A stretch of 64,000 nt of DNA from Acidimicrobiales bacterium (GTDB taxonomy: Bacteria > Actinomycetota > Acidimicrobiia > Acidimicrobiales > SKKL01): assembly GCA_034521975.1 (NCBI GenBank), contig JAXHLR010000002.1, positions 62,001 to 126,000 of the forward strand. The letters run 5' to 3'. Shown here in pieces: positions 49,554 through 62,596 of this stretch. Made by a program: the position numbers and the translations under genes. The notes beneath the pieces are model-generated. The model did no database searches, had not been told where the DNA came from, and worked only from the letters and a program-made list of their open reading frames with translations. Each line of letters begins with the position of its first letter. The stretch's first letter is position 1.

Positions 49554-50114
49554 CTACTCGTCCAGCCAGACCGGGGCTCGGTCGAGCAAGAAGCGGCTCA
49601 CCTCGAGGCAGCGGTCCAACACGTCGCACAGCTGCTCCTGTCCGAGAAAGATCCGGGTCAGCGAGACCTCGATCCGTCCCACGATGGAGAGGCTCCGCTC
49701 GGTGGCCTCGGTGGCCGATGCCGTGGAGTCGATCGCCGAGACGTCGAGAGGGAGATCGGGACCGCCGATGCCGGCCAGCTCGGTGGCCAGCACCAACAGG
49801 TCGGGGCCTTTGGGCAGCGGCGGCATGGCCCAGGTGAACAGCAGCGGGAAGTTCCACACATCGGGTGGCTCGTCGGTCTCGGGCAGGTCGAGGATGGCGT
49901 CCTCGAAGCCGAGCATGACCCGGGGGTCGACCTCGAGCGCCAGGTGCAGGTCAAGCGGTCCGCCGCAGGCCTCCTCGGGGTGGAGATCGACCTCCCAGGC
50001 CTGGCGCAGGGAATAGGTCTCGACGAAGTGTCGCTCGTCGTGGACGTGGAACCCGTGGTCCACGGCGTGGTCCTTGAGGTCGGCGACGAAGACGGGAACA
50101 TCGATGGCTGCCAC
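49554..50114 (-). CDS. Hypothetical protein, copy 1
   Basis: This 186-residue soluble protein belongs to no family I recognise. Its middle contains an acidic segment (DLHLALEVDPRVMLGFEDAI) and FPLLFTWAMPPLPKGPDLLVLATELAG; the C-terminus is helical (LCDVLDRCLEVSRFLLDR). It is convergent to the GGDEF gene (16-bp gap) and divergent from the IMPase-like gene. GTG 50114 is the likely start. Identical in copy 2. Confidence 0.65.
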   Translation of the reverse strand: MAAIDVPVFVADLKDHAVDHGFHVHDERHFVETYSLRQAWEVDLHPEEACGGPLDLHLALEVDPRVMLGFEDAILDLPETDEPPDVWNFPLLFTWAMPPLPKGPDLLVLATELAGIGGPDLPLDVSAIDSTASATEATERSLSIVGRIEVSLTRIFLGQEQLCDVLDRCLEVSRFLLDRAPVWLDE

Positions 50115-50162
50115 GCCGTCAAGACTGCCAGCATTGGTGGTCTCTCGGCTAGGTTGCGCCCG

Positions 50163-50915
50163 ATGCGGCCCCCCGCGGATGCATCGATCCCCGAGCTGCT
50201 GGACGAGGTTGCCGGCCTCGTCCAGATATCGCTCGCAAGGCTGGACGCATGGGGGTTGGCGGGGACCGCGCCCGGCCAGCACCACAGCGATGTCGAGGCG
50301 GACCAGGTGGCGGTGCGGAGGTTGGTCGACGCCGGTGTCGGGGTGCTCAGCGAGGAGAGCGGTCTGCACCATCCGGGGCGGGACGTCGTCGTGGTCCTCG
50401 ATCCCCTCGATGGTTCGACCAACGCCGCCCATGGGGTCCCGTGGTACGCGACCAGTCTCTGCGCGGTCGACGCCGACGGGCCGTTGGCGGCGGTGGTGGT
50501 CGACCTGGCGCACGACCGGTGGTACCGGGCCCAGCGCGGCGGGGGAGCGACGCTCGACGGCGGCTCCATCGCCCCCGGCGTCGCCACCTCCCTCGACGAT
50601 GCCTTCGTCGGACTGTCGGGCCTGCCGCCTCGGCACCTGGGATGGCGCCAGTTCCGGGCTCTGGGTGCGGCGGCGCTCGACCTGTGTGCGGTCGCCGACG
50701 GCACGCTCGACGCCTTCGTGGACTGCAGCGTCGATGCGCACGGATCCTGGGACTACCTCGGGGCACTGCTGGTGTGCGAGGAGGCCGGGGTCGCGGTGCG
50801 CGATGCGCATGGACGGTCACTCGTGGTGCTCGCCCACGACGCCCGCCGAACCCCGGTCGCCGCCTGCACGACCGAGCTGCTCGACGAGGTGGTCGCGGCC
50901 CGCGGCGGGTTCTGA
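50163..50915 (+). CDS. Inositol monophosphatase-family protein, copy 1
   Basis: This 250-residue protein has the FIG/IMPase metal-site motifs LSEESG, VVLDPLDGSTNAAHG and SWDYLGALLVCEEAGV. Metal-binding Glu and Asp residues are present. It may hydrolyse inositol-1-phosphate (mycothiol or phospholipid inositol pathways), 3'-phosphoadenosine phosphate or a sugar phosphate; the substrate is not determined. TAGGTT (50150-50155) is 7 nt before ATG. Confidence 0.87.
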   Translation: MRPPADASIPELLDEVAGLVQISLARLDAWGLAGTAPGQHHSDVEADQVAVRRLVDAGVGVLSEESGLHHPGRDVVVVLDPLDGSTNAAHGVPWYATSLCAVDADGPLAAVVVDLAHDRWYRAQRGGGATLDGGSIAPGVATSLDDAFVGLSGLPPRHLGWRQFRALGAAALDLCAVADGTLDAFVDCSVDAHGSWDYLGALLVCEEAGVAVRDAHGRSLVVLAHDARRTPVAACTTELLDEVVAARGGF

Positions 50916-50963
50916 GGCGCGGATCCCGATGGGATGGGTCGGGCCCGGCCGTAGGCTCATGAG

Positions 50964-51443
50964 GTGATCGCTGCGGTGCATCGGCTCCTGCTCGGGGTGT
51001 TCGGATGGCTTCCACGTCGTGTTCGCCGCCGGATCGTGGGCACCCTGACGCCCTCCTACACGGTCGGGGCCATCTGTGTCATCGAACGGGCCGACGGCCG
51101 CATCGCGCTCATCCAGCACCGGTACCGGAACCGGTGGGGCCTTCCGGGTGGCCTGCTGGCCCGTCGGGAGGATGCTCGTGACGCCGCCCGACGAGAGGTG
51201 CGCGAGGAGATCGGCATCGACGTCGACCTGGAGGGCGAGGCCCAGGTCGTGGTCGAACCTGTTGTGCGCCGGGTCGATGTGGTGTTCAGGGCCCGCCCGG
51301 TCGACGACGAGCCGCTGGTGTCGCCCACGAGTCCCGAGATCGTCGCTGTCGAGTGGTTCGAGCCCGATGCGCTCCCCGATCTGCAGGACGAGACGGCGGT
51401 CGCCCTGGCCACCATCGAGAGGGCGTTGCGGCACCATGACTAG
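50964..51443 (+). CDS. Nudix hydrolase
   Basis: This 159-residue protein has a Nudix box GGLLARREDARDAARREVREEIGI (G-x5-E-x7-REVxEE) in residues about 63-86 with all catalytic Glu residues. The N-terminus has a short hydrophobic-basic stretch (LLLGVFGWLPRRVRRRI) that may be membrane-associated. Substrate is unknown. TAGGCT (50952-50957) lies 6 nt before GTG 50964. It is followed by tRNA-Val. Confidence 0.88.
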   Translation: MIAAVHRLLLGVFGWLPRRVRRRIVGTLTPSYTVGAICVIERADGRIALIQHRYRNRWGLPGGLLARREDARDAARREVREEIGIDVDLEGEAQVVVEPVVRRVDVVFRARPVDDEPLVSPTSPEIVAVEWFEPDALPDLQDETAVALATIERALRHHD

Positions 51444-51446
51444 GCT
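51441..51446 (+). promoter_or_regulatory. Probable -10 of tRNA-Val
   Basis: TAGGCT lies 12 bp before the mature 5' end of tRNA-Val. The surrounding AGGCTGACCCG (51442-51452) is also found exactly at the right boundary of the element (61511-61521). Confidence 0.5.
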
Positions 51447-51458
51447 GACCCGTCTCCG

Positions 51459-51532
51459 GGGCGCTTAGCTCAGCTGGCGAGAGCACCTCCCTTACAAGGA
51501 GGGGGTCGGGGGTTCGAGTCCCTCAGCGCCCA
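51459..51532 (+). tRNA. tRNA-Val (anticodon TAC)
   Basis: A 74-nt cloverleaf reads GGGCGCTTAGCTCAGCTGG, anticodon stem-loop CCTCC-CTTACAA-GGAGG, and GGTTCGAGTCC, with acceptor GGGCGCT/AGCGCCC and discriminator A. CCA is not encoded. The integrase gene begins 117 bp downstream, so tRNA-Val is the likely attachment-site neighbour, although no second copy of its 3' end is visible to 61.5 kb. Confidence 0.94.
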
Positions 51533-51595
51533 CGAGATCGGTACAAATCCGCAGGTCAGAGGCCATATCCCCGCCTCGCTCGGTTCCATCGGGTA

Positions 51596-51617
51596 CTCTA
51601 GCACAGCGCAGCTAGAG
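51596..51617. promoter_or_regulatory. Inverted repeat upstream of the integrase
   Basis: CTCTAG-N10-CTAGAG (51596-51601 and 51612-51617) is a perfect 6-bp inverted repeat between tRNA-Val and the integrase. It could be an integrase arm site or an operator. Confidence 0.4.
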
Positions 51618-51648
51618 CGCATAACATTCGCCCTGAAAGATCCCGAGA

Positions 51649-52572
51649 ATGGCCACCTACAAGCTCCCCGCCGACCAGTCGCCCGGCTCCATCGGACGCC
51701 TCGCCGCCTCGTTCGTGCTCGCCCTCGAAGCCGAACGCAAGAGCCCCCGCACCGTGGACGGCTACACCTCGTCGCTGCGCCTGTTCGACCGGTTCTGCCG
51801 CGACCACGACCATCCCACCATCGTGGCCGAGGTGACCCGCGACTCGATCCGAGCGTTCATGGCCGACCAGTTGGCCCGCAACAAGCCATCGACAGCACAG
51901 ACCCGCTACAAGGGCCTGCGGGTGTTCTTCGGGTGGCTCGTCGCCGAGGGTGAGCTCGACGCCGACCCGATGGCCAACATCAAGCCCCCGGCCATTCCCG
52001 AAGAACCGGTCCCGATCCTCACCGACGACGACCTCGACCGGTTGTTGAAGGCGTGCGCCGGTGACACCTTCGACGCTCGTCGCGACACCGCCATCGTGAT
52101 GATGCTGCTCGACACCGGCATGCGTCGCGGCGAGCTGGCCAACCTGGCGGTGGCCGACATCGACTGGGAGAACCGCGTCGCGGTGGTCATGGGCAAGGGG
52201 TCGAGGCCCCGAGCGTGCCCGTTCGGCGCGAAGTGCGCCAAGGCCCTCGACCGGTACCTGCGCCACCGAGACCGCCACCCCTACACCGAGTCGCCCCGGC
52301 TGTGGCTCGGCACCCGCGGGCCACTCACCGACCAAGGGGTTCGCCTCATACTCGAACGACGGGGGCGACAGGCCGGGATCGACGGGCTCCACGCTCACCA
52401 GTTCCGCCACACCTTCGCCCATCGCTGGCTCGAAGCCGGTGGCAACGAAGGTGACCTCATGCGCCTCACCGGTTGGCGTGCCCGGCAGATGCTCGCTCGC
52501 TACGGCGCCTCGGGTGCGGACTCGCGGGCCCGCGACGCCCACCGGCGTCTGTCACCGGGGGACCGGCTGTGA
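51649..52572 (+). CDS. int: Tyrosine recombinase / phage-type integrase
   Basis: This 307-residue protein has an N-terminal SAM-like core-binding domain ([14 protein letters not shown]) and a C-terminal catalytic domain with TGMRRGEL (Arg159), GKGSRPR (Lys183), [11 protein letters not shown] (His250, Arg253), [14 protein letters not shown] (Trp276 in the His/Trp position, Tyr285). All catalytic residues are present. It would integrate the following element. The stop overlaps the next GTG. Confidence 0.92.
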
Positions 52573-53102
52573 TCGAGATCGACCTCGCGGAACCGATGGG
52601 AGTTGAGTGGGTACCGGCACTTGAGCACGTCGAGAGCGATCCCCGAGCCTCGCTCGTGGCAGAGGTGAAGTGCGGCGAGAAGGGGTGTGGCGTCGACGTC
52701 GGGCTCCGGGTGATCTCGGTCGGGGGCACCCGCTTACTGGTCGGTGAGCGACGCCTCGTTCCTCGTCGAATGGAGGATGAGTCCCGCCGCACCATCGAGG
52801 AACGAAGGGATCGAGCACGAGTTGAGCGACGCCCGCTTACCAACGGCCTAGGAAGGGTCGCCATCCCGCTCGAAGGCGAACCCGGTCGGCCCGTGACACT
52901 CACGCAGGCCATTCGCAACGCTGTCGCTGACCCGACACGATTCCAAGGGTGGGAAGCCTGGCTCTCATCGATGGATGATCCTCGATGGGAGACGGTGCTG
53001 ACGGCTGATTGCGGCTACCACGACAGGGTGTTCTTGGTGGCGGATGCCCACAGTGCACGGCGCAGGCAGGTTCTCGTCACCCGCGAGTACCGGGCCGTGT
53101 AG
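52569..53102 (+). CDS. Element hypothetical protein
   Basis: This 177-residue product has one CxxxxxC pair ([10 protein letters not shown]) near residue 36, a basic stretch ([16 protein letters not shown]) and a C-terminal segment [16 protein letters not shown] do not recognise a family. It is coupled to int by a 4-base overlap (GTGA). It is followed by a 104-bp gap with an RBS for the next gene. Confidence 0.55.
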
Positions 53103-53206
53103 CGGTCCACCACCCGATAGCACAGCGCTGGTAGGTTGGCTGACAACTGATCCGGCCGGGCAAGGCTGCTCCCCGATGGCAAGCGGGACCTCCTAGGAGG
53201 CCTGCC

Positions 53207-53461
53207 TTGCCTGCCCTCACACCGAACGAACGCTCTCTCCGAGCGAGGATGGCCGCCCACAAGCTCCACGCTGGTGGCGGCACTAACACCGAACCGGCCC
53301 GTGCCGCGTTTCTGGAGCGCTTCGAAGCCGAAGTCGACCCCGATGGGGCGCTCACGCCCGAGGAACGAGCCCGCCGAGCCGAACACGCCCGAAAGGCGTA
53401 CTTCGCTGACCTCGCCCTCAGGTCAGCCAAGGCCCGCCGCCAAGCCAAGGGGGCGGCGTGA
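53207..53461 (+). CDS. Small element protein, Arg/Ala-rich
   Basis: This 84-residue protein begins PALTPNERSLRARMAAHKLHA and contains FEAEVDPDGALTPEERARRAEHARKAYFADLALRS-type sequence (residues about 44-75 with EERARRAEHARKAYF). I recall similar small proteins from actinobacterial integrative elements and phages, but no function is known to me. TTG 53207 is used as start because AGGAGG (53195-53200) lies 6 nt before it. The stop overlaps the next GTG. Confidence 0.7.
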   Translation: MPALTPNERSLRARMAAHKLHAGGGTNTEPARAAFLERFEAEVDPDGALTPEERARRAEHARKAYFADLALRSAKARRQAKGAA

Positions 53462-53925
53462 CGCGGCAGGACCTCCCCAGGGGGGAGGCCCAAACCGTCG
53501 CACGGCACAGCGACAGCATACCCCACCCGGTACCACTATGGGGTGACCCCGAGCCGATCGAGGCCCCCTGCTGGCGGTGCCGAACCGGCACCGTCGAGCG
53601 CGACCACCGCGGTGTACTCCCCGAGTGCCGCAACTGCCACCGCATCGACGACGCACGACCCGATGACCACGAGACGAGCCGGGCCGCTGCGCGACAAGCT
53701 GACCGCGGCCCGCGGTCGCGTCTCGCCCGCCTGATCCTGGCCGACCTGGCCGAGCACGGCCCATCGACCGACGACGAGGGGCACGCCCGTCATCCTGACG
53801 AGCTGCTCGGCTCATGGTCGAAGCGAAGGGGTGATCTGGTGGCCGCTGGTCTGGTGCGTGACACCGGCCGGACCCGCCCGACCCGTCGAGGGGTCGGGGC
53901 CGTCGTGTGGGAGGTGGTCGAGTGA
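53458..53925 (+). CDS. Zinc-ribbon plus winged-helix element protein
   Basis: This 155-residue protein has a zinc ribbon (PCWRCRTG and PECRNCHR, four Cys) and a C-terminal winged-helix-like region (SRLARLILADLAEHGPS, KRRGDLVAAGLVRDTGRTR). The RTRPTRRGVGAVVWEV ending resembles phage-encoded HTH proteins. It may regulate the element. It overlaps both neighbours by 4 bases. Confidence 0.65.
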   Translation: MTRQDLPRGEAQTVARHSDSIPHPVPLWGDPEPIEAPCWRCRTGTVERDHRGVLPECRNCHRIDDARPDDHETSRAAARQADRGPRSRLARLILADLAEHGPSTDDEGHARHPDELLGSWSKRRGDLVAAGLVRDTGRTRPTRRGVGAVVWEVVE

Positions 53926-54206
53926 GCGATCACCTGACGATCCCGACGACCTGTCACGTCACCGGACTACCCATCATGGTGGAGCCTGACGGGCTACTCG
54001 ACGAGGCCGTGTCGCTGCTGTTGCGCCGAGCGCTGGATGAGGCCGCCGCAGCGGCCGAGGACTTGCATGCCTACCGGCTCGCGCCGGCCGCACGCCGGTA
54101 CCGCCGCCTCGCCGACCTGTTGGACCGGGCCGAGCCCGACGTGGCCCGGTGGGTCGAGGCCCGTGCTCGTGCACTCGCTGAGCGGTTCGAGGAGGTGATC
54201 GAGTGA
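53922..54206 (+). CDS. Element hypothetical protein
   Basis: This 94-residue protein has one CHVTGLPIMV segment and a long helical region (LLLRRALDEAAAAAEDLHAYRL, ARRYRRLADLLDRAE). GTG 53922 overlaps the previous stop (GTGA) and its own stop overlaps the ATPase start, so all five genes from int to the ATPase form a dense early-type operon. No function is inferred. Confidence 0.55.
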   Translation: MSDHLTIPTTCHVTGLPIMVEPDGLLDEAVSLLLRRALDEAAAAAEDLHAYRLAPAARRYRRLADLLDRAEPDVARWVEARARALAERFEEVIE

Positions 54207-55318
54207 GCATCCTCGACACCCTCCGCCAGACCGCGATCCTCAACGGCACCGACCCCGACGAGGACGAGACCATCAAGCTGTTGTCCGGGCTCCGTGACGG
54301 TACCTGGCTCGACGCCCAGGAGTTCCCACCACTGCGGTGGCACCTTCCCGGCATCATCCCCGAAGGCTCCAACCTGCTGGTAGGACCCCCGAAGGTCGGC
54401 AAGTCCTGGTTCGTGCTCGCCCTGGCACTCGCGGTCGCCTCGGGCGGCCGGATGCTGGGCGAGACCGTCGAGTCGCGCCCGGTGCTGTACCTCGCGCTCG
54501 AGGACGGCGACCGCCGTCTACAGGACCGCTGTCGGACCCTGCTCGAAGGCGAGGCCATCCCCGAGGGGTTCACCTACTTGACCCGCATCGAACCGGGATC
54601 GGTGCTCGCCACGATTGATGCGTGGCTCGACTGCCACCCCGACACCTCGCCGCTGGTCATCTTGGACACGTTGGGCAAGGTCATGCCTCCGGCGCTCATG
54701 GGCGAATCGAGCTACGGCCGCGACTATCGGGTCGGGTCCGCGCTCAAACGCCTGGTCGACCATCACCCCGGCTCCGCGCTGCTGGTGAACCACCACGACC
54801 GCAAAGCGCAGTCCGAGGACTTCGTCGAGCGAGTGTCGGGCACCAACGGGCTGGCCGGTGCTGCGGACACGATCATCGTCCTGGCCCGTGACCGTCACGC
54901 CGATGAGGGGACCATCGCGGTCACCGGCCGAGACGTGGGCGAAGGTGAGTACGCGGTCCGCTTCGACGGCACTACCGGCACCTGGTCGACCCAAGGCCGC
55001 ACCCTGGCCGATGCTGCGGCCCGAGCTGCACAGCAACGTGCCGCCTCGGGGATCGGTGACCGCTCCGCTGAGATCGTCACCTATGTGGCCGAACACCCCG
55101 ACGGTGTGCGGGCCCGCGAGGTGGCCACCACCTTCGAGATGGGCGACAAGGCAGCGGGAACCTACCTGGGCCGACTGGCCGACGCCGGGCGCATCCAACG
55201 GGCGAGCCGGGGCCTCTATACCCCTGTTGGAAGTGTTGAGTTGTTGGAAACGAAGGTCCTCGACTTTCCACAACTCAACACTTCCAACACCCCCACTGGG
55301 GGTCCCGATGCCTCGTGA
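54203..55318 (+). CDS. RepA-like AAA/RecA-fold ATPase
   Basis: This 371-residue protein has Walker A GPPKVGKS (61-68), SRPVLYLALEDGDRRLQDR, Walker B PLVILDTLGK and LLVNHHDRKAQSEDFVERVSGTNGLAGAADTI, the layout of RecA-fold helicase-type ATPases (RepA/AAA_25) in plasmids and phages. The C-terminal 60 residues form a winged-helix segment (HPDGVRAREVATTFEMG). It may be the replication or mobilisation ATPase of the element. A long hairpin is embedded in its last 30 codons. Confidence 0.8.
   Translation: MSILDTLRQTAILNGTDPDEDETIKLLSGLRDGTWLDAQEFPPLRWHLPGIIPEGSNLLVGPPKVGKSWFVLALALAVASGGRMLGETVESRPVLYLALEDGDRRLQDRCRTLLEGEAIPEGFTYLTRIEPGSVLATIDAWLDCHPDTSPLVILDTLGKVMPPALMGESSYGRDYRVGSALKRLVDHHPGSALLVNHHDRKAQSEDFVERVSGTNGLAGAADTIIVLARDRHADEGTIAVTGRDVGEGEYAVRFDGTTGTWSTQGRTLADAAARAAQQRAASGIGDRSAEIVTYVAEHPDGVRAREVATTFEMGDKAAGTYLGRLADAGRIQRASRGLYTPVGSVELLETKVLDFPQLNTSNTPTGGPDAS
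55226..55288. repeat. Long inverted repeat at the 3' end of the RepA-like gene
   Basis: Arms at 55226-55250 and 55265-55288 pair over 19 perfect base pairs, then a one-base bulge and five more, around a 14-nt loop. A second short palindrome (ACCCCC-ACT-GGGGGT) begins at 55289. Both are inside or just after coding sequence. They could be a replication-origin hairpin, a terminator or an attenuator. Confidence 0.85.
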
Positions 55319-55544
55319 AACCGCACGCACGAAGGCCCACCGCCTGCTCACCGAAGGGCGACTGATTGTCACGCGGCTCGAGCCGCGTGGCGTCGTCGAA
55401 GCCCGGGCTCGCGGCGAGGGTCACGTCTACAAGCTCGGATTCGAGTTGGGCGACTGGCATTGCTCGTGCCCGCACCGCGGACCGGGCTGCTCGCACCTGG
55501 TAGCGCTGCGATCGGTGGTCGCGGTCGGGGGAGGCATCCGGTGA
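55308..55544 (+). CDS. SWIM-type zinc-finger small protein
   Basis: This 78-residue protein has a SWIM-like motif WHCSCPHRGPGCSHLVAL (CxC-x6-CxH) at residues about 51-68 after a short basic N-terminus. SWIM domains bind nucleic acids or proteins and occur beside phage and plasmid genes. ATG 55308 lies inside the hairpin region, and its stop overlaps the next start. Confidence 0.7.
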   Translation: MPRETARTKAHRLLTEGRLIVTRLEPRGVVEARARGEGHVYKLGFELGDWHCSCPHRGPGCSHLVALRSVVAVGGGIR

Positions 55545-55966
55545 GCGGGCTGACCACCCTCGCCGCCGACACCGCTCGCGGCCGGGCCCGTACCTCCACC
55601 CTCGCCTCCGAGCTGCGAACCAAGCTCGAAGCGATCCAGGCCAACGACGAGGCCGGTAGGTGGGTAGGTAGGGACGGGGGACTCCCCGAGCCCGACGCCG
55701 AGGCGACGACCACCGAGCTGCGGACCCACGCTGTCGTCGGGCTGTCGCCGCAAGGACGACCCCCTCCGGGTCACCGATCTCGCATCGGCGATCGAAGCGT
55801 GGGCCGGGCTGTGACCCCCCACCGGGGGGTCCCCTCCCCAGGGCCCAAGACCGGGCCGGGAGCGTCTTCGCAGGTTGTACGGGTTCAAAGGTTCGGACAT
55901 TTGATGGCGATGACGGGCTGTTTCGGGCGTTTTGAGGACGTTGAGGGGGAGCCCGGCCGGTGTTGA
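55541..55966 (+). CDS. Element hypothetical protein, possible frameshift
   Basis: The first 80 residues (SGLTTLAADTARGRARTSTL, EAIQANDEAGRWVGRDGG) read as normal coding sequence. Downstream, another frame offers a more natural ending (KDDPLRVTDLASAIEAWAGL, stop at 55813), and GGTA-type short repeats lie at 55661-55680. The true product may therefore be about 90 residues, with a frame change near 55700. Function unknown. Confidence 0.45.
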   Translation: MSGLTTLAADTARGRARTSTLASELRTKLEAIQANDEAGRWVGRDGGLPEPDAEATTTELRTHAVVGLSPQGRPPPGHRSRIGDRSVGRAVTPHRGVPSPGPKTGPGASSQVVRVQRFGHLMAMTGCFGRFEDVEGEPGRC

Positions 55967-56388
55967 GGCGTCGGATGGTCGACGTGCGGGTGTCGGGTGG
56001 TGTGCCGGTGTTGGTGGTCGAACCCGACGCGGCCCGGACGGTGGCGGAGTTGGTGGATCGGGCCTACCGCCAGCACCTGCAGCGCCGTCATGCTCCGCTG
56101 CCTGAGGCGGAGGAGTTGATCGACGTGCTCGGTGTGATCGCCCGGGCAGGTATGTCCTCTCGCGGACAGTTCGTCGCTCGCGAGGTGCCGGAACCGTCAT
56201 CGTTTGTGTCGTCGGCCATGGCGGCCGAGGTCATCGGGTCCCACCCACGAACGGTGCGCCGCAAGGCGGCCAACGGGACGATCCCGGGGGCTCAACGTCA
56301 TGGCCGGGACTGGTTGATACCGGTCAGATTTCTCACCAAGGAGACACATCGAGATGCCGAGCCAAGAACCGACCCTGATGTTGCGTGA
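55960..56388 (+). CDS. HTH-containing element protein
   Basis: This 142-residue protein has a helical N-terminus and a C-terminal excisionase-like winged helix (MAAEVIGSHPRTVRRKAANGTIPGAQRHGRDWLIPV, residues about 87-122, with SHPRTVRRK as recognition helix). Such proteins often act as excisionases or small repressors. GTG 55960 is used. Its 3' end overlaps the start of the next gene by 35 bp. Confidence 0.65.
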   Translation: MLRRRMVDVRVSGGVPVLVVEPDAARTVAELVDRAYRQHLQRRHAPLPEAEELIDVLGVIARAGMSSRGQFVAREVPEPSSFVSSAMAAEVIGSHPRTVRRKAANGTIPGAQRHGRDWLIPVRFLTKETHRDAEPRTDPDVA

Positions 56389-57118
56389 CGTGGTGGTGCG
56401 GGGATTCCTCGCCTGGGACTCCTCGATTCCCGATGGGCGGTTGCAGAACAGCCGCTACCGCAGCACCCAGCTTGTCCTGCAGCGGAACTACCGCCGGGCC
56501 GTGGGGCTGTGGTCCACGGCCGAGGCTGCGGTCGACGCGGCCGATGAGCGGGCACGACAGATCCACCACAACCAGCGCCTCACCGACGAAGCACGCGCCG
56601 ACGCGACCCGCGAGGTTGTCGCGTCCGAGGGCGGCAACGCCCGTGAAGCGGCAGAGGAGATCCGCCAGCTTGTGGACGCGTCTGCGGAACGACTGCGGGC
56701 GACGATGTTGCCGCCGCGACCCCAACCGGCTGATGCCGCCCAGGAGGCGGCTCTGGCAAACCTGCGCTCGGATGTGGCGATGGTTCTCGACCGCCTGAGC
56801 GCGAACGAGGTACCCGAGCGCATGGAGGCCATGGTGCGCGAAGCCAACGACGAGGGCGATGCTCTGTCGAGGTGGTTCCTGGTGGCCACGCCGTGGGCGA
56901 AGCGCTACCTCGAGTCACGCGGGGCGGAGCTGGCCGGGTGGAGCAACCGCCTGCCGCGGATCGTCGCCGCCGTTGGCGATGACCTCGAAGAGGCACGGGC
57001 CATGCACCGGGTGTTGGAGACCCTCGAGTCCCCGAAGGGGATGCTCGGGGCAGTCTCGGCGCTCGACCACTGGATCAAGGCCCGCCTTGACGGCGCGTCC
57101 ATGAGGCTCGCAGCGTGA
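56354..57118 (+). CDS. Alpha-helical element protein
   Basis: This 254-residue protein is nearly all helix and rich in Ala, Arg and Glu (ERARQIHHNQRLTDEARADAT, ASEGGNAREAAEEIRQLV). It has no Cys and no signal. It lies upstream of the tape-measure gene in the position of phage tail or chaperone genes, but the identity is not supported by a motif. An AGGAGA RBS lies upstream. Confidence 0.55.
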   Translation: MPSQEPTLMLRDVVVRGFLAWDSSIPDGRLQNSRYRSTQLVLQRNYRRAVGLWSTAEAAVDAADERARQIHHNQRLTDEARADATREVVASEGGNAREAAEEIRQLVDASAERLRATMLPPRPQPADAAQEAALANLRSDVAMVLDRLSANEVPERMEAMVREANDEGDALSRWFLVATPWAKRYLESRGAELAGWSNRLPRIVAAVGDDLEEARAMHRVLETLESPKGMLGAVSALDHWIKARLDGASMRLAA

Positions 57119-57134
57119 CCACGCCCAGGCTTGT

Positions 57135-57425
57135 TCACGTCGGCGGACCGCCACGCGAGCTGGTAGGGGTCGAGTCTGGTGGCGCAGCCAGGAAGATCAC
57201 TCCGGCAATCCCGGAGAACGCAGCGAACCCGAACACTGCGATCGCTGGTGTGCGGTCCGGTTCGGGTTCATCGCGGCCGAGGTCGACATCGTACGCCTCT
57301 ATCAGATCCTCTGCTCGCTGTTTGGCGGCCACGTTCTCAGTTTCGGCCTGCCACATCCACCACCCGGCGAGCAGCAGCACGACACCGAGCACGAGCAGGC
57401 CGGCGCCGATCGTCCGCTTGTTCAT
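57135..57425 (-). CDS. Small two-helix membrane protein
   Basis: This 96-residue protein has two TM helices: IGAGLLVLGVVLLLAGWWMW (about residues 6-26) and IAVFGFAAFSGIAGVIFLAA (about 62-81). They flank a charged loop (DLGRDEPEPDRTP). It is on the minus strand inside an otherwise plus-strand block, so it may be a lysogeny or immunity-type membrane protein; that role is a guess. Confidence 0.6.
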   Translation of the reverse strand: MNKRTIGAGLLVLGVVLLLAGWWMWQAETENVAAKQRAEDLIEAYDVDLGRDEPEPDRTPAIAVFGFAAFSGIAGVIFLAAPPDSTPTSSRGGPPT

Positions 57426-57457
57426 AGCTCCGACCGTACCTGCGAAGGAGATGACGC

Positions 57458-60145
57458 ATGGCTGATGATCGGGACGTGAGGGTTCGCTTCATCGCGAACG
57501 TCTCCAACTACACCCAGGGGGTCCGCCAGGCCGGTCGTGCGACACGCGACTTCGGTCGCGAAGTGTCGGGCAGGGGGCGGGCCGCCGAGGCCCAGTTGCA
57601 GGCGGTGGGCCGGTCGTCGCTGTTGATGGCTGCGGGTATGGCCGGTGGGTTCGCGCTCGCCACCAAGGCCGCGATCGATTGGGAGTCGGCGTGGACTGGT
57701 GTGCTCAAGACCGTCGACGGTTCCGACGAGGAGCTGGGTGCGCTCGAGGACGGGTTGCGCCGGATGGCGACCGAGCTTCCTGCGACCCACACCGAGATCG
57801 CGGCGGTGGCTGAGGCTGCGGGCCAGTTGGGGATCTCGACCCCGGCGATCGAGGACTTCACGCGCACCATGATCGACCTGGGGAGACGACGAACCTGTCG
57901 GCTGGTGAGGCCGCTACGAACTTGGCTCGTGTGGCGAACATCATGCAGACCTCGCAGTCCGACTTCGATCGGATGGGGTCGACGGTGGTTGATCTCGGCA
58001 ACAACATGGCGACCACCGAGTCTGAGATCGTCGAGTTCTCGACCCGTCTCGCTGCTGCGGGCCAGATCGCGGGGTTGTCCGAGGCGGACGTGTTCGCGTT
58101 CGGTGCGGCAATGACCTCGGTCGGTGTGCGGGCCGAGGCTGGTGGTACCGCACTGAGCAAGGTGTTCACCGGGATGCGTGACGCGGTGCTGACCGGCACC
58201 GAGGAGTTGGACACGTTCGCTGATGTGGCGGGGATGACTGTCGACGAGTTCGTGACCGCGTTCGAGGACGATCCGGCCCAGGCGATCGACAGCTTCATTC
58301 GTGGGTTGGGGACGATGAACGAGGCGGGCGAGTCGACCACCGAAGTGTTCGAGGCGCTGTCTCTGACCGATCAGCGGTTGATGCGTTCGCTGCTGTCGGC
58401 TGCGTCGGCTGGTGATGTGCTCACCGAGGCGTTGGAGATCGGCAACCGGGCGTGGGAGGACAACACGGCCCTCGCGTCGGAGGCCGAGATGCGTTACGAC
58501 ACGACAGCGGCACAGATGCAGATCCTCCGCAACCGGGTGACCGATCTGGCGGTCGATGCCGGTTCGACGCTGCTGCCGGTGCTCAACAATGTGGTCGAAG
58601 CTGTGGGTGATATGGCGGTCGGGTTCGCTGAGATGCCCGGTCCGATCCGCACCGCCGGTCTGGCGTTCGGTGGTGTGTCGACCGCGGGGCTGACCGTGCT
58701 CGGTGTGACGGCGATGCTGGTCCCGAAGGTCCGTATCCTGCGGGCGTCGATGATGGGGATGGGTACTGCTGGGCAGTTCGTCGGCCGCAACATGGGCCGC
58801 ATGGCGACCGGTGTCGGCCTCGCCGCTGTCGCCATCGCTGGTGTGTCCTACATCATGGGCCAGAACGCGAAGAAGGCCGAGGAAGCACGGCAACGGATGC
58901 TCGGTTTCGCCGACGCGATCCGCGAAGCGGGCGACGCTGCTGAGGGCACCGCTTCCGAGATCGCTCGGGTGGTGGGTGAGACCCCCGACCTGGCTCGGAT
59001 GTTGAATGACGCCGAGGTGTCGGTCGCCGACCTGTCGAGGGCGATCCACGGCAGCGACGATGATTGGGAGCAGATGCGAGACCGGCTGCTCGCCACCGCC
59101 GACGCGGCCGGTGAAAGCACTCTCGCGTTCGCCGCCTTTCTCCACCGCATGCGCGACGACGCTCGGGAGGCGGTCACCCACGTCGAGAACGTGGAGGGTG
59201 CCGTCGACGGGGCAGGCGACGCCGCTTCCGGTGCCGCCGGCCAGGTCGGCGAGATGACCGATGCGTTCGATGACAACAAGACCGCTGCCGAGGAAGCCGA
59301 GGATGCGGTCAAGAACTACCGGGACACTCTCCGAGCGATGTTCGACCCGTGGTTCGGTGCGATCGACGCGCTACAGAAGAACGCCGAAGCTCAGGATGAT
59401 GTGACCGCAGCAGAGTGGAAGCTGATCGCCGCCACCCAGGAGTACGACAAGGCGATCCGTGAGCACGGCCAAGGGTCCGACGAGGCCCGCGAAGCCTCCA
59501 TGAAGCTCCTCGAAGCCCAAGGGAATCTGGAGGACGCCAACTACGACGCGGTGCGGTCTGCGTTCGATCTCGACGGTGCCCTGAACGAGTTGCAGATCCG
59601 TTTGGCGGGGGGCATGTCGCTCGACGAGGCCGAAGCGAAGCTCGACAGCTGGGCGGACCAGGGTTGGATCACCGAGCAACAGGCCGCTGACCTGGCGGAG
59701 GAGTTGGGGATTGTGCGCGACGAAGCGCACTCGATCCCGTCGGAGATCACGATCTCGTTCTATGCGGACACCTCGGAGTTCGACCGCAAGTTCGGGGTGT
59801 TGACCGAGCAGGCTCGTTCGACTCGTTCGCACACGATCCCGATCACGGTCCGGTCGTGCGGTGGGGATGGCGGGCCGTGCGCTGGGTGGCCCGGTGCAGG
59901 CCGGTACGTCCTATCTGGTGAACGAGGACACGCCCACGTTCGGAGATGTTCATCGCCGGTCACCGACGGGCACGTGAGCACCCAGCGGCAGTTCCTCGAA
60001 GCCTTGTCGGGCGCTGGTGGCGGTAATGAGGTGCACATCCATCGAGCACTTCGACCGCGGGCTCTCCGAGCTCGAGACGGACGCTCTCGCTGAGCACTCC
60101 CAGCGTCGAGCCGGGTGGCAGATGCACTTGGCGGGGGTCCGTTGA
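57458..60145 (+). pseudogene. Phage tail tape-measure protein, several frameshifts
   Basis: The product matches TP901-type tape measure proteins: VRFIANVSNYTQGVRQAGRATRDF, GTALSKVFTGMRDAVL, SEAEMRYDTTAAQMQILRNRV and the hydrophobic core MLVPKVRILRASMMGMG. Frame breaks occur at about 57882 (MIDLG to ETTNLSAGEAATNLARV), then near 59850, 59945, 59955 and 60040, each joining good coding segments. The last segment ends at 60145 (HFDRGLSELETDALAEHSQRR). An RBS (GAAGGAGA) supports ATG 57458. It is either a decayed tail gene or poorly sequenced. Confidence 0.82.
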
Positions 60146-60146
60146 G

Positions 60147-60383
60147 ATGGACGACGCCGACGCCGACCTCGCCGCAGCGTTCGACCTGCGGGCGGTCAAC
60201 TGCAACGTTGAGCACTACGAGTTCCACGTCGGCACCCACCCCGACACCCTCGCCTCGGAAGTGATCCTGATCCTGCACACCACCGACGGCCAGGATCTCG
60301 TGGTCGCGTTGGACCCGCTCGCTGCGGTCGGGCTCGCTGTCACCGTGGTCGACTGCGCCGAACAGGCACTCGACTTGCCGTGA
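60147..60383 (+). CDS. Small element protein
   Basis: This 78-residue acidic protein (FDLRAVNCNVEHYEFHVGTHPDT, LILHTTDGQDLVVALDPLAAVGLA) looks like a small beta-sandwich. Its ATG lies 1 bp after the tape-measure stop and its stop overlaps the next GTG. No family is recognised. Confidence 0.55.
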   Translation: MDDADADLAAAFDLRAVNCNVEHYEFHVGTHPDTLASEVILILHTTDGQDLVVALDPLAAVGLAVTVVDCAEQALDLP

Positions 60384-60693
60384 CCTGGGACGGCGACCCC
60401 GACGCCGCTCCCGACGGTGCCGATCTGTTGGTCGAGCTGCTGGGCCGTTCCCGCGGTGGCACGCCGACGCTGCGTGCCGTGGCGAGGGCCCGAGCCGATG
60501 GTTCCCCGAGCTGGGGCAACAGGGCACCGACGCCAAGGCCGTCTGCGCCCGGTGCCCGGTGCGGTCTGAGTGCCGCCAGGCGGGCCAGGACGAGCCCCAC
60601 GGCATCTGGGCGGGTGAGTCACCACGGGAGCGCAGGCGGGCTCGCAGGAACGCTCAGGGCGCCGCATCGACGCGAAGCGACCCCCGACCGTGA
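60380..60693 (+). pseudogene. WhiB-family transcriptional regulator, frameshifted
   Basis: Two frames join to give a WhiB protein of about 104 residues. The first part (60380 to about 60445) reads MTWDGDPDAAPDGADLLVEL. From there frame +1 gives WHADAACRGEGPSRWFPELG, DAKAVCARCPVRSECRQAGQ and HGIWAGESPRERRRARRN, ending at 60693. Four cysteines (CRG, CARC, SEC) and the G-I-W turn are intact, enough for a 4Fe-4S cluster. A single missing base near 60445 (GGGCCGTTCCC) would restore the frame. WhiB-like proteins are actinobacteria-specific redox-sensing regulators, also found in actinophages. Confidence 0.75.
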
Positions 60694-60726
60694 TGGCCGG
60701 GGGTCGCTGTCGCGGCACGGGGTCGG

Positions 60727-60870
60727 TCAGGCTCGTAGCTCGATGAGCCGCTGCTCAAGCTCGCTGGTGTCGTGGCCGTGACGCTCGCACAGTTCGATCG
60801 TGCGCTGCACGAGCTTGATCGCCATATCGCGGCGTTCGGCTTCCTCGCGTTCGACGGTGGTGACGGTCAC
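60727..60870 (-). CDS. Small coiled-coil-like protein
   Basis: This 47-residue helical protein (EREEAERRDMAIKLVQRTIELCERHGHD, key residues 7-35) starts at GTG 60870, which overlaps the stop of the upstream minus-strand gene (TGA, 60869-60867). Its translation is therefore probably coupled. Function unknown. Confidence 0.5.
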   Translation of the reverse strand: MTVTTVEREEAERRDMAIKLVQRTIELCERHGHDTSELEQRLIELRA

Positions 60871-61420
60871 TGGTCGCCTCCGTCGTCGATCATGGAGTCA
60901 GGGTGGAAGGTCCACACGCTCGCCGCCGCTGCCTCCGTCATGAGCTTCTGCATGCCCGGATCGCAGTACATGCGAGCATCCCCGAGCAGTTCGTCGTCGA
61001 GATCGGCAGGGTCGACCGTCCACCCGGCACCGCTCGCCGAGACCGGCGTCGATCGCCCGCCGCTCCGGTTCGGCCAGATCCTCGATCAGCGCCGCCCGCC
61101 GCAACTCCTGCCGCCGCTCCAAGGTGAACCCGGCGGCGTTGAGCTTGGCCCGTCGCGCATCGCTCTCGCTCGATGAGCTTGGCCGCCGAGGAGGATCTCG
61201 TCGAGGTAGGCGTCGGCTTCATCGACCCCGGTTTCGAGCGAGAACGCAGCGTCCATCAGGCGCATGCGGTCCAGGCTCGCGGTCGGATCGGCCTGGAGCC
61301 GGTGATCGAGGTCCTCTCCGCGTCGTCGAGGTGGTCGTCGTGCCAGATCGGGCAGTAGTCGTCGTCGAAGCCCTTGAGGCCCGGCACCTGGTCGATGGTC
61401 GGAAGCTGGTCGGTGGTCAT
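60867..61420 (-). pseudogene. Frameshifted minus-strand gene, unknown function
   Basis: Starting at ATG 61420, four coding segments can be joined: MTTDQLPTIDQVPGLKGFDD, then (shift near 61265) DLDHRLQADPTASLDRMRLM, then (shift near 61170) AKLNAAGFTLERRQELRRAA, then (shift near 61030) ADLDDELLGDARMYCDPGMQ. The reading ends at TGA 60867. There are at least three single-base breaks and no internal stops in the good segments. The intact product would be about 185 residues. No family is recognised. It is coupled to the small gene at 60727. Confidence 0.5.
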
Positions 61421-61519
61421 GGGTGGGTGGTCCTCCTGGTGGTGAGAGCAGGAGATTCCGACGCCACGGTTGGCACCGACCCAGGGGTTTCGCTCGTTAG
61501 CAGGCCGTTCAGGCTGACC
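61421..61519. other. Right end of the mobile element
   Basis: About 100 bp without a gene, between the minus-strand gene and the duplicated segment. It ends with AGGCTGACCCG (61511-61521), the same 11 bp as just upstream of tRNA-Val (51442-51452). No copy of the tRNA-Val 3' end, which a normal attR would carry, is visible. Confidence 0.6.
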
Positions 61520-61560
61520 CGATTATGAGTCGCCTGCTCTGACCACTGAGCTACTGGCCC
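61520..61560 (-). pseudogene. Truncated tRNA-Ile2 (5' 41 nt only)
   Basis: This is the 5' part of tRNA-Ile2 through the anticodon loop, identical to 48461-48501. The 3' half (T arm and acceptor) is missing and replaced by element sequence. Confidence 0.9.
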
Positions 61561-61572
61561 TGACGGGGGGAG

Positions 61573-61645
61573 CTCCGGGGGTGGGGCTCGAACCCACGAC
61601 CTACTGATTAACAGTCAGTTGCTCTGCCGACTGAGCTACCCCGGA
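61573..61645 (-). tRNA. tRNA-Asn (anticodon GTT), copy 2
   Basis: Identical to the tRNA-Asn at 48514-48586: 73 nt, anticodon loop CTGTTAA, complete acceptor stem. It should be functional, doubling tRNA-Asn gene dosage if the duplication is real. Confidence 0.93.
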
Positions 61646-61711
61646 ATGCAGCGGTGAGGATAGCAGTGCCGGCGGTCGTGACCTGCCGCTCGGGCTGGCA
61701 GAATCGTGCCC

Positions 61712-62596
61712 GTGAGCGACGAGGAGCTGGGCGACGAGGTCGAACGGCTCCGCGCCCTCGTCGCGGCGATCCCCGATCCCATCTACCGGATCACCGCCGA
61801 CGGCACCTTCATCAGCGTCGAACGGCCCGACGACCATCCCAGCGCCATGACCCAGGATTCGATCCCGGGCCGTTCGGTGCGCACCGCGATGCCCGCAGCC
61901 CAAGCCGAGGTGGTGATGGCCGGCATCCAGGAGGCGCTCGCCACGGGGAGGCTCTGCACCGTCGAGTACGACCTGGTCCTCGACGGCGAGCAGCGCTGGT
62001 GGGAGGCCAGGATCGTCCCCACCGGTGGCGAGGTGCTGGGCATCGTCCGCGAGGTCACCGAGCGCCGCCGTGGTGAGGCCGAGACCCTTCGAGCGGCCCG
62101 CAGCGACGCGCTGACCGGGCTCGCCAACCGGGCGGCGTTCACCGCAGAGCTCGAGCACGCGATCGCCCGCTCACGCCGTTCGGGACGTGCCCTGGCGGTC
62201 TTCTACTGCGACCTCGACCGGTTCAAGGAGGTCAACGACCGGCACGGACACGCGACCGGCGACGTCGTCCTCGCGGAGGTGGCCGACCGGGTACGTAGGG
62301 CGCTCCGCGACATCGATCTGGCGGCCCGTCTCGGTGGTGACGAGCTCGCGGTGCTGGTCGAGGAGTTCGACTCGGCCCACGCGCTCGAGGCCGTCGGGCT
62401 GCGCGTGGTCGACTCGGTGTCCCAGCCCTATGTGGTCGACGGCGCCGAGCACCTCATCGGGATGAGCATCGGCATCGCCGTCCTCCCCGACGATGCCGAC
62501 ACCGCCGGTGCACTCCTCGAGATCGCCGATGCCGCCATGTACCGAGCCAAGGCGCGAGGAGGGTCGCAGCTGGCGTTCGGCCGTCGCCTCGACTGA
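61712..62596 (+). CDS. PAS-GGDEF diguanylate cyclase, copy 2
   Basis: Same protein as the gene at 48653 with three amino-acid changes (SAMP to SAMT, GDIVL to GDVVL, FGGRLD to FGRRLD) and two silent changes. The GGDEL signature and upstream RDID are kept. The CAGAAT box 7 nt before the GTG is unchanged. Two of the three changes lie in or beside the GGDEF domain. Confidence 0.87.
   Translation: MSDEELGDEVERLRALVAAIPDPIYRITADGTFISVERPDDHPSAMTQDSIPGRSVRTAMPAAQAEVVMAGIQEALATGRLCTVEYDLVLDGEQRWWEARIVPTGGEVLGIVREVTERRRGEAETLRAARSDALTGLANRAAFTAELEHAIARSRRSGRALAVFYCDLDRFKEVNDRHGHATGDVVLAEVADRVRRALRDIDLAARLGGDELAVLVEEFDSAHALEAVGLRVVDSVSQPYVVDGAEHLIGMSIGIAVLPDDADTAGALLEIADAAMYRAKARGGSQLAFGRRLD

Follow-up and report, generated by a model that had tools for sequence, protein, structure and literature searches.

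A mirrored array of short repeats at the end of a helicase gene as a candidate replication origin of an integrative phage-derived element

Closest described systems

In PICIs the origin lies immediately 3′ of rep and holds two sets of short iterons, and the rep-ori unit alone replicates autonomously (PMC6092414). In pRN1 of Sulfolobus a stem-loop 3′ of rep is a required and movable origin, which keeps its structure while its sequence changes (PMC4234260). DNA helicases were noted in some candidate PICIs of Mycobacterium (PMC10654092), and the word "iteron" is absent from the main text of that paper. Within the literature covered, which is mostly open-access and includes passages of PMC3643907, PMC6092414, PMC7145576, PMC5779722, PMC7157519, PMC3986857, PMC10690885, PMC10654092 and PMC4234260, no description of iterons or hairpins behind an AAA_25-type Rep was found.

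The locus described here lies at the 3′ end of a rep gene within a stretch of 64,000 nucleotides, which was analysed as a whole and is called the window below. It resembles the PICIs of Gram-positive bacteria and E. coli in position and layout only, with an array directly 3′ of the part of rep that encodes the winged helix and with two iteron sets. It differs from them in that an AT-rich centre is absent and in that its helicase belongs to the AAA_25/RSF1010-RepA type; the Pri-Rep of E. coli PICIs is described as a distant relative of a P4 protein (PMC6092414). The likeness to pRN1 is a large stem-loop just behind a replication gene with a C-terminal winged helix (PMC4234260). In contrast to pRN1, the stem-loop of the window overlaps the end of the Rep ORF and is built of iterons, while the pRN1 authors report none there; furthermore, pRN1 Rep combines a prim-pol with an SF3 helicase (PMC4234260), whereas the ATPase of the window is AAA_25. 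RSF1010 (IncQ) is similar by family and fold of its RepA-type helicase only (1g8y, E 8e-11). The iterons of the RSF1010 oriV are longer. A further difference is that RSF1010 has separate initiation proteins (PMC4234260), while in the window one protein, Rep, comprises both the helicase and the winged helix; the relative on plasmid pATHE01 has a Prim-Pol domain in addition. A separate iteron-binding RepC or a primase RepB had no match among the nine element ORFs scanned besides Rep itself.

Candidate Mycobacterium PICIs and phiRv1/phiRv2-like elements integrate and are about 10 kb long, and one relative from a viral contig (L047) fits them by gene content (PMC10654092). This locus encodes an integrase, a repressor-like gene product, Rep, a terminase, a portal protein and a protein with a weak scaffold match. 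No tail gene was present among the ten ORFs of L047 scanned, and a Megablast comparison of L047 with phage records gave no match. The window element differs from these elements, as it keeps tail-gene debris, and terminase, portal and capsid genes are missing among the nine ORFs scanned (Pfam, PHROGs).

The Rep protein and the mirrored units of the window

The source assembly comprises 3.3 Mb in ten contigs, and the window lies on contig 2. The element starts beside a tRNA-Val gene (51459-51533) and encodes a tyrosine integrase (51649-52572, forward strand; Phage_integrase, E 2.6e-30). It looks like a truncated prophage and may be defective in replication or spread; it may be unable to spread because the structural genes look truncated. 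A tape-measure protein is distributed over two overlapping frames (57458-58114 and 57922-60093).

Rep is a protein of 371 amino acids (54203-55318, forward strand) in which an AAA_25 helicase of RecA fold, RSF1010-RepA/DnaB-like, is followed by a C-terminal winged helix. The ATPase domain covers residues 35-203 (54305-54811, forward strand) and is recognized by Pfam AAA_25 with an E value of 2.3e-24. The best PHROG is phrog_6357 (E 2.1e-39), a family without known function, and the motif PKVGKSWF is invariant in 11 aligned Rep sequences. The best solved relative of a profile of 11 sequences, the one from the window included, is RepA of RSF1010, the replicative helicase of that plasmid. Residues 62-282 of the predicted model (mean pLDDT 81.3) align to DnaB, T7 gp4 and RSF1010 RepA with Z scores of about 15-17; the values for 1olo are Z 15.4 and rmsd 3.5 over 186 aligned residues. 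The winged-helix domain, at about residues 283-340 (55049-55222, forward strand), is assigned from weak profile matches together with the model, which has helices and strands in this part. Pfam matches of winged-helix type in the C-terminus stay below their cut-offs, residues 276-342 weakly match a replication initiation protein in PHROGs (E 0.0088), and PDB chains of winged-helix type match the C-terminal part of the Rep profile. We propose this domain as the iteron-binding domain of Rep. Pfam gave no Prim-Pol match in the 371 residues.

The array begins 2 nt behind the winged helix, within the non-conserved end of the Rep ORF. A repeat search of the window yielded two arms, 55225-55249 and 55265-55289, which are 92% complementary over 25 nt. 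Their core is a perfect stem of 20 bp (55225-55244 and 55270-55289, with 25 nt between), which is the longest perfect stem of the whole 64-kb window at loops of up to 60; the runner-up has 14 bp. The stretch 55210-55320 folds as RNA with −53.7 kcal/mol (z −6.7) and as DNA with −32.3 (z −7.75), and in either case none of 200 shuffles was as good. The G+C content is 45.5% in 55225-55290 vs. 67.9% in 51543-61519.

The stem can be read as three units, a 14-nt spacer and three inverted copies of the units. On the forward strand these are L1 (TGTTGGAAG, 55225-55233), L2 (TGTTGAGT, 55234-55241) and L3 (TGTTGGAAA, 55242-55250), followed by the spacer or loop at 55251-55264. The inverted units on the reverse strand are R3 (TGTGGAAA, 55265-55272), R2 (TGTTGAGT, 55273-55280) and R1 (TGTTGGAAG, 55281-55289), of which the innermost, R3, is one base short. 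The deviant 8-bp unit L2 is exactly mirrored in R2, and the arms pair at 20 of 20 positions in the perfect stem. The spacer, CGAAGGTCCTCGAC, contains 9 G or C among its 14 bases; an AT-rich region between the two iteron sets of the window is thus missing, which counts against an origin.

Directly behind the hairpin and ahead of the ATG of a small ORF lies the short palindrome ACCCCCACTGGGGGT (ACCCCC-ACT-GGGGGT, 55289-55303, forward strand), which is evident from the sequence and the folds. From its position, the G run of this palindrome is likely the ribosome-binding site of the next gene. That ORF (55308-55544, forward strand) is outside the origin; it resembles a SWIM zinc finger by a weak Pfam match (E 0.0012, 18.8 bits at a cut-off of 19.6). 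The sequence-only reading had pointed to both the large hairpin and the second palindrome, and both are real. It had placed them in the coding end of rep and at the start of the SWIM gene; the hairpin does lie in the Rep coding end, but both features precede the ATG of the SWIM-like ORF.

Conservation of Rep among aligned relatives stops at residue ~339. Residues 341-363 are the array read as codons and cannot be aligned among relatives, and residues 347-371 have pLDDT values under 50. The earlier idea that protein and hairpin are conserved together is therefore wrong, and a hairpin in a coding end need not imply double coding selection.

Repeats behind rep in related loci

Relatives were collected from genome contigs (21 loci) and from viral contigs (13 loci in one search, the best 80 of 194 in another). 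Among 296 genomes of the class, 3 gave a match at E 1e-20, and among 396 genomes of the phylum, 12 did so at E 1e-25, G000 included in both cases. Contigs of 9-12.5 kb carry 36 of the best 80 of the 194 viral loci, and the others are up to 70 kb long. A relative of Rep is held by 27 of 50,697 phage records at E 1e-5, none of which covers 80% of the protein.

The repeats were counted from an anchor, for which the Rep profile was truncated where the winged helix ends. This truncated profile is matched by 134 loci, of which 98 extend to the winged-helix end and have a further 250 nt behind it; a stricter de-duplication left 84. The array of the window is one of the 84, as a locus of 4.1 kb (L035). 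A broken copy (L037/L038) was left out even though L037 has an 18-bp stem, and so were five loci (L014, L017, L018, L030 and L034) whose match ends short of the winged-helix end of the profile; these five have repeats at their gene ends. An earlier count over 92 loci with laxer de-duplication was replaced, as its anchor overshot in the window protein and only 5 pairs were scored there.

Direct and inverted repeats alike peak sharply at +50 from the winged-helix end and return to background by about +350. Inverted pairs of 8-mers reach 6.0 per 150 nt at +50 against a background of about 0.35 (about 17-fold), and direct pairs 7.1 against about 0.6 (about 12-fold). Within single loci, the site tops every other counting window in 49 of the 84, among them the locus of the window's own array; no more than 1% of the other counting windows equal or exceed it in 58 loci, and no more than 5% in 65. 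Comparison with other ORF ends of the same loci gave a similar picture. An inverted pair of 24 nt with at least 18 matches is present at 57 of 84 Rep ends vs. 13 of 427 other ends, and with at least 20 matches at 35 of 84 vs. 1 of 427. Perfect stems of at least 12 bp occur in 28 of the 84 loci vs. 2 of 226 control segments. Over the whole set, A+T content in the 120 nt that follow the winged helix exceeds that of the respective locus by 6-9 percentage points.

The repeats have a period of 9 bp: identical 6-mers recur at this distance 530 times vs. 10 times in a control stretch. In 21 of the 84 loci the Rep ORF ends no more than 45 nt after the winged helix, and there the stretch is thus for the most part outside the Rep coding sequence. 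In these early-stop loci the 6-mers recur at 9 bp 91 times within the 200 nt downstream of the stop, and the codon phase of Rep is thus not the cause of the period. At least three recurrences at 8-10 bp were counted in 60 of 84 loci vs. 2 of 84 controls. The window's own array, with three units a side of which one has 8 bp, fails this recurrence test, which counts against the origin reading.

Unit words vary among relatives (TGTCACAAG, TGTCCGAAG, TGTTGAAAG, CGATAACG, GATAGTAG and others). Nevertheless, the two arms are complementary within each relative. Covariation of the stem had been proposed as a check, and it was applied in a form fit for repeats that cannot be aligned: when, among the 57 loci with paired arms, left arms were compared with right arms from other loci, they agreed at 6.4 of 24 positions on average, about chance. 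The spacers between paired arms measure 6-125 nt in these loci. Similarity of the units rises with similarity of Rep, with partial correlations of 0.11 both for the winged helix and for the ATPase core, and 0 of 500 permutations reach the value of the winged helix. Since the units track the ATPase core equally, these values do not mark the winged helix as the part that reads them. A further count, according to which the arms are more alike than the units within an arm in 47 of 57 loci, was dropped, as it is biased because the arms had been picked for their best match.

Two plasmids also carry such an array. Of 72,556 plasmid records 8 hold a relative of Rep; the repeats were examined in two of these, and in both the array lies at the place predicted from the other loci. 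One of the two, C. bescii pATHE01, is a circular plasmid of 8.3 kb with one protein that combines Prim-Pol, AAA_25 and a winged helix. Its array (L136, 1728-1918) lies inside the rep gene, begins some 37 nt downstream of the winged-helix match and consists of six 9-bp ATTCACTCT units followed by inverted units; it is likely the origin of pATHE01. An identification of this 8.3-kb record with pBAS2 was rejected, as pBAS2 is published as a small plasmid of 3.7 kb and the published size of 8.3 kb is that of pBAL. In Tsukamurella plasmid 5 (250 kb; L137, 9007-9083) a perfect stem of 26 bp with three 9-bp units and a 25-nt spacer starts 5 nt after the rep stop.

Homologues that lack the stem had been named by the sequence-only reading as evidence against a function. 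This holds in part: 70 of the 84 loci pass at least one of the two array tests, while 14 pass neither (L015, L010, L022, L087, L001, L074, L128, L133, L084, L089, L088, L090, L006 and L135). Among the loci listed, units were read by eye. Direct units are still visible in L022, L001, L087 and L074, units are doubtful in L006, L084 and L089, and none were seen in L015, L010, L128, L133, L088, L090 and L135. The locus from Streptosporangium (L001, 51% identity) is the closest named relative among the genome-contig loci, so that its weak score has to be counted as a genuine exception. Two of the failing loci, L088 and L090, come from contigs of 39-48 kb, and phages such as L088 perhaps have another origin. 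Behind the array-less Rep relative of L088 (6890-8995), the next ORF resembles a DNA polymerase by eye, an observation made post hoc. On contig 57 of genome G379 there are two copies of Rep, separated by about 20 kb (L128 and L133), and both fail the array tests.

Origin reading and alternatives

We read the hairpin, from comparative sequence evidence, as a probable iteron-type, hairpin-capable replication origin of the integrative phage-derived element, recognized by the Rep encoded upstream, and give this reading a probability of roughly 0.8. It is supported by the anatomy of the site, its recurrence at the same place, the 9-bp period, the changing words with complementary arms and the two plasmids, and further by the likeness of Rep to RSF1010 RepA and DnaB and by the PICI and pRN1 precedents. 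An origin had been among the suggestions of the sequence-only reading, and the comparison of 84 loci supports it well. We infer binding by Rep, melting, loading of the helicase and replication of the element, which might proceed as follows. The element would excise and circularise, the winged helices would then bind the iterons, and Rep would gather on both arms. The DNA could open between or beside the arms, and the mirrored arms might extrude as a hairpin in the process; the helicase ring would be placed so that host primase and polymerase copy the circle. Binding of Rep to the array is not to be taken for granted, since the pRN1 authors observed that their Rep did not bind specifically to its stem-loop region (PMC4234260).

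A rather unlikely alternative, which overlaps with the origin reading and differs in what is recognized, is that the hairpin acts as a folded single strand, either as an ssi-like site where primase is loaded or as a cruciform by which the helicase ring is loaded, the repetition of units being secondary. The perfect stems of at least 12 bp enriched behind rep would suit it, and so would the pRN1 origin, a stem-loop that needs its integrity (PMC4234260). In the window the arms match each other better than the units within an arm do, because the deviant L2 is mirrored exactly in R2; template switching between arms can, however, also make perfect mirrors. Many loci have inverted iterons without a long perfect stem and with widely differing spacers, and by eye some (L022, L074) have direct units only, which speaks against this alternative.

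It is improbable that the array is an operator to which Rep or another element protein binds, repressing or coupling rep and the following genes, while replication starts elsewhere. Iterons can also act in autoregulation, as in iteron plasmids, and the array does lie between rep and the following genes. Nevertheless, it is situated behind rep and not ahead of it, and no promoter-like site was detected in 53000-57500, a weak test for such hosts. Two-sided, multi-copy 9-bp arrays at the same place on plasmids and integrating elements fit an origin better.

A role in attenuating or terminating transcription of the genes that follow rep, suggested as an attenuator in the first reading, found little support and appears very improbable. 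The predicted RNA fold is very stable, but a T run follows neither hairpin and no terminator-like site was scored in 53000-57500, by a scan confined to loops of 3-8 that leaves the large hairpin itself unscored. Rfam at gathering score returned two tRNAs and nothing else in 50000-62500, and direct repeats, 9-bp period and plasmid arrays would be left unexplained. A rolling-circle or transfer nick site, a nicking site being the remaining suggestion of the first reading, is scarcely credible: hairpins mark many nick sites, but the nine ORFs of the element that were scanned (Pfam, PHROGs) gave no match to a HUH or Rep_trans protein, a relaxase or a rolling-circle initiator, and Rep is an ATPase of ring-helicase type.

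Beyond the single origin, a broader and tentative proposal, which we hold to be possible yet doubtful, is a so far unrecognized replicon type that crosses phyla. It would combine a DnaB/RSF1010-RepA-like helicase and a winged helix, with or without Prim-Pol, with its own mirrored 9-bp iteron origin at the 3′ end of the gene. The protein tail would be the origin read as codons, and the hairpin would itself load the helicase ring on the two strands, making a separate loader unnecessary. Such replicons would join the iteron type (PICI, RSF1010) and the stem-loop type (pRN1).

On the origin reading, a group of integrating elements, of which many measure about 10 kb, and some plasmids gain a specific origin that can be put to the test. 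Such replication genes are annotated merely as "AAA family ATPase", and distant phage relatives as "RecA-like DNA recombinase". With a length of about 1.1 kb, the rep-ori unit fits on one cloned fragment for a test of autonomous replication, and it could give small vectors for poorly tractable Actinobacteria. The varying unit words represent a natural set of Rep/iteron specificity pairs.

A repeat of 3082 bp was observed around the element. A chromosomal segment that begins within tRNA-Met (48461) and ends shortly after tRNA-Val (51542) recurs at 61520-64601, at an offset of 13059 and with five mismatches; the last 601 bases of the second copy lie beyond the window (L040). The repeat is possibly an artefact of assembly or strain mixture. 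Its order matches the one that an aberrantly excised specialised-transducing (lambda-dgal-like) form integrated at tRNA-Val would give.
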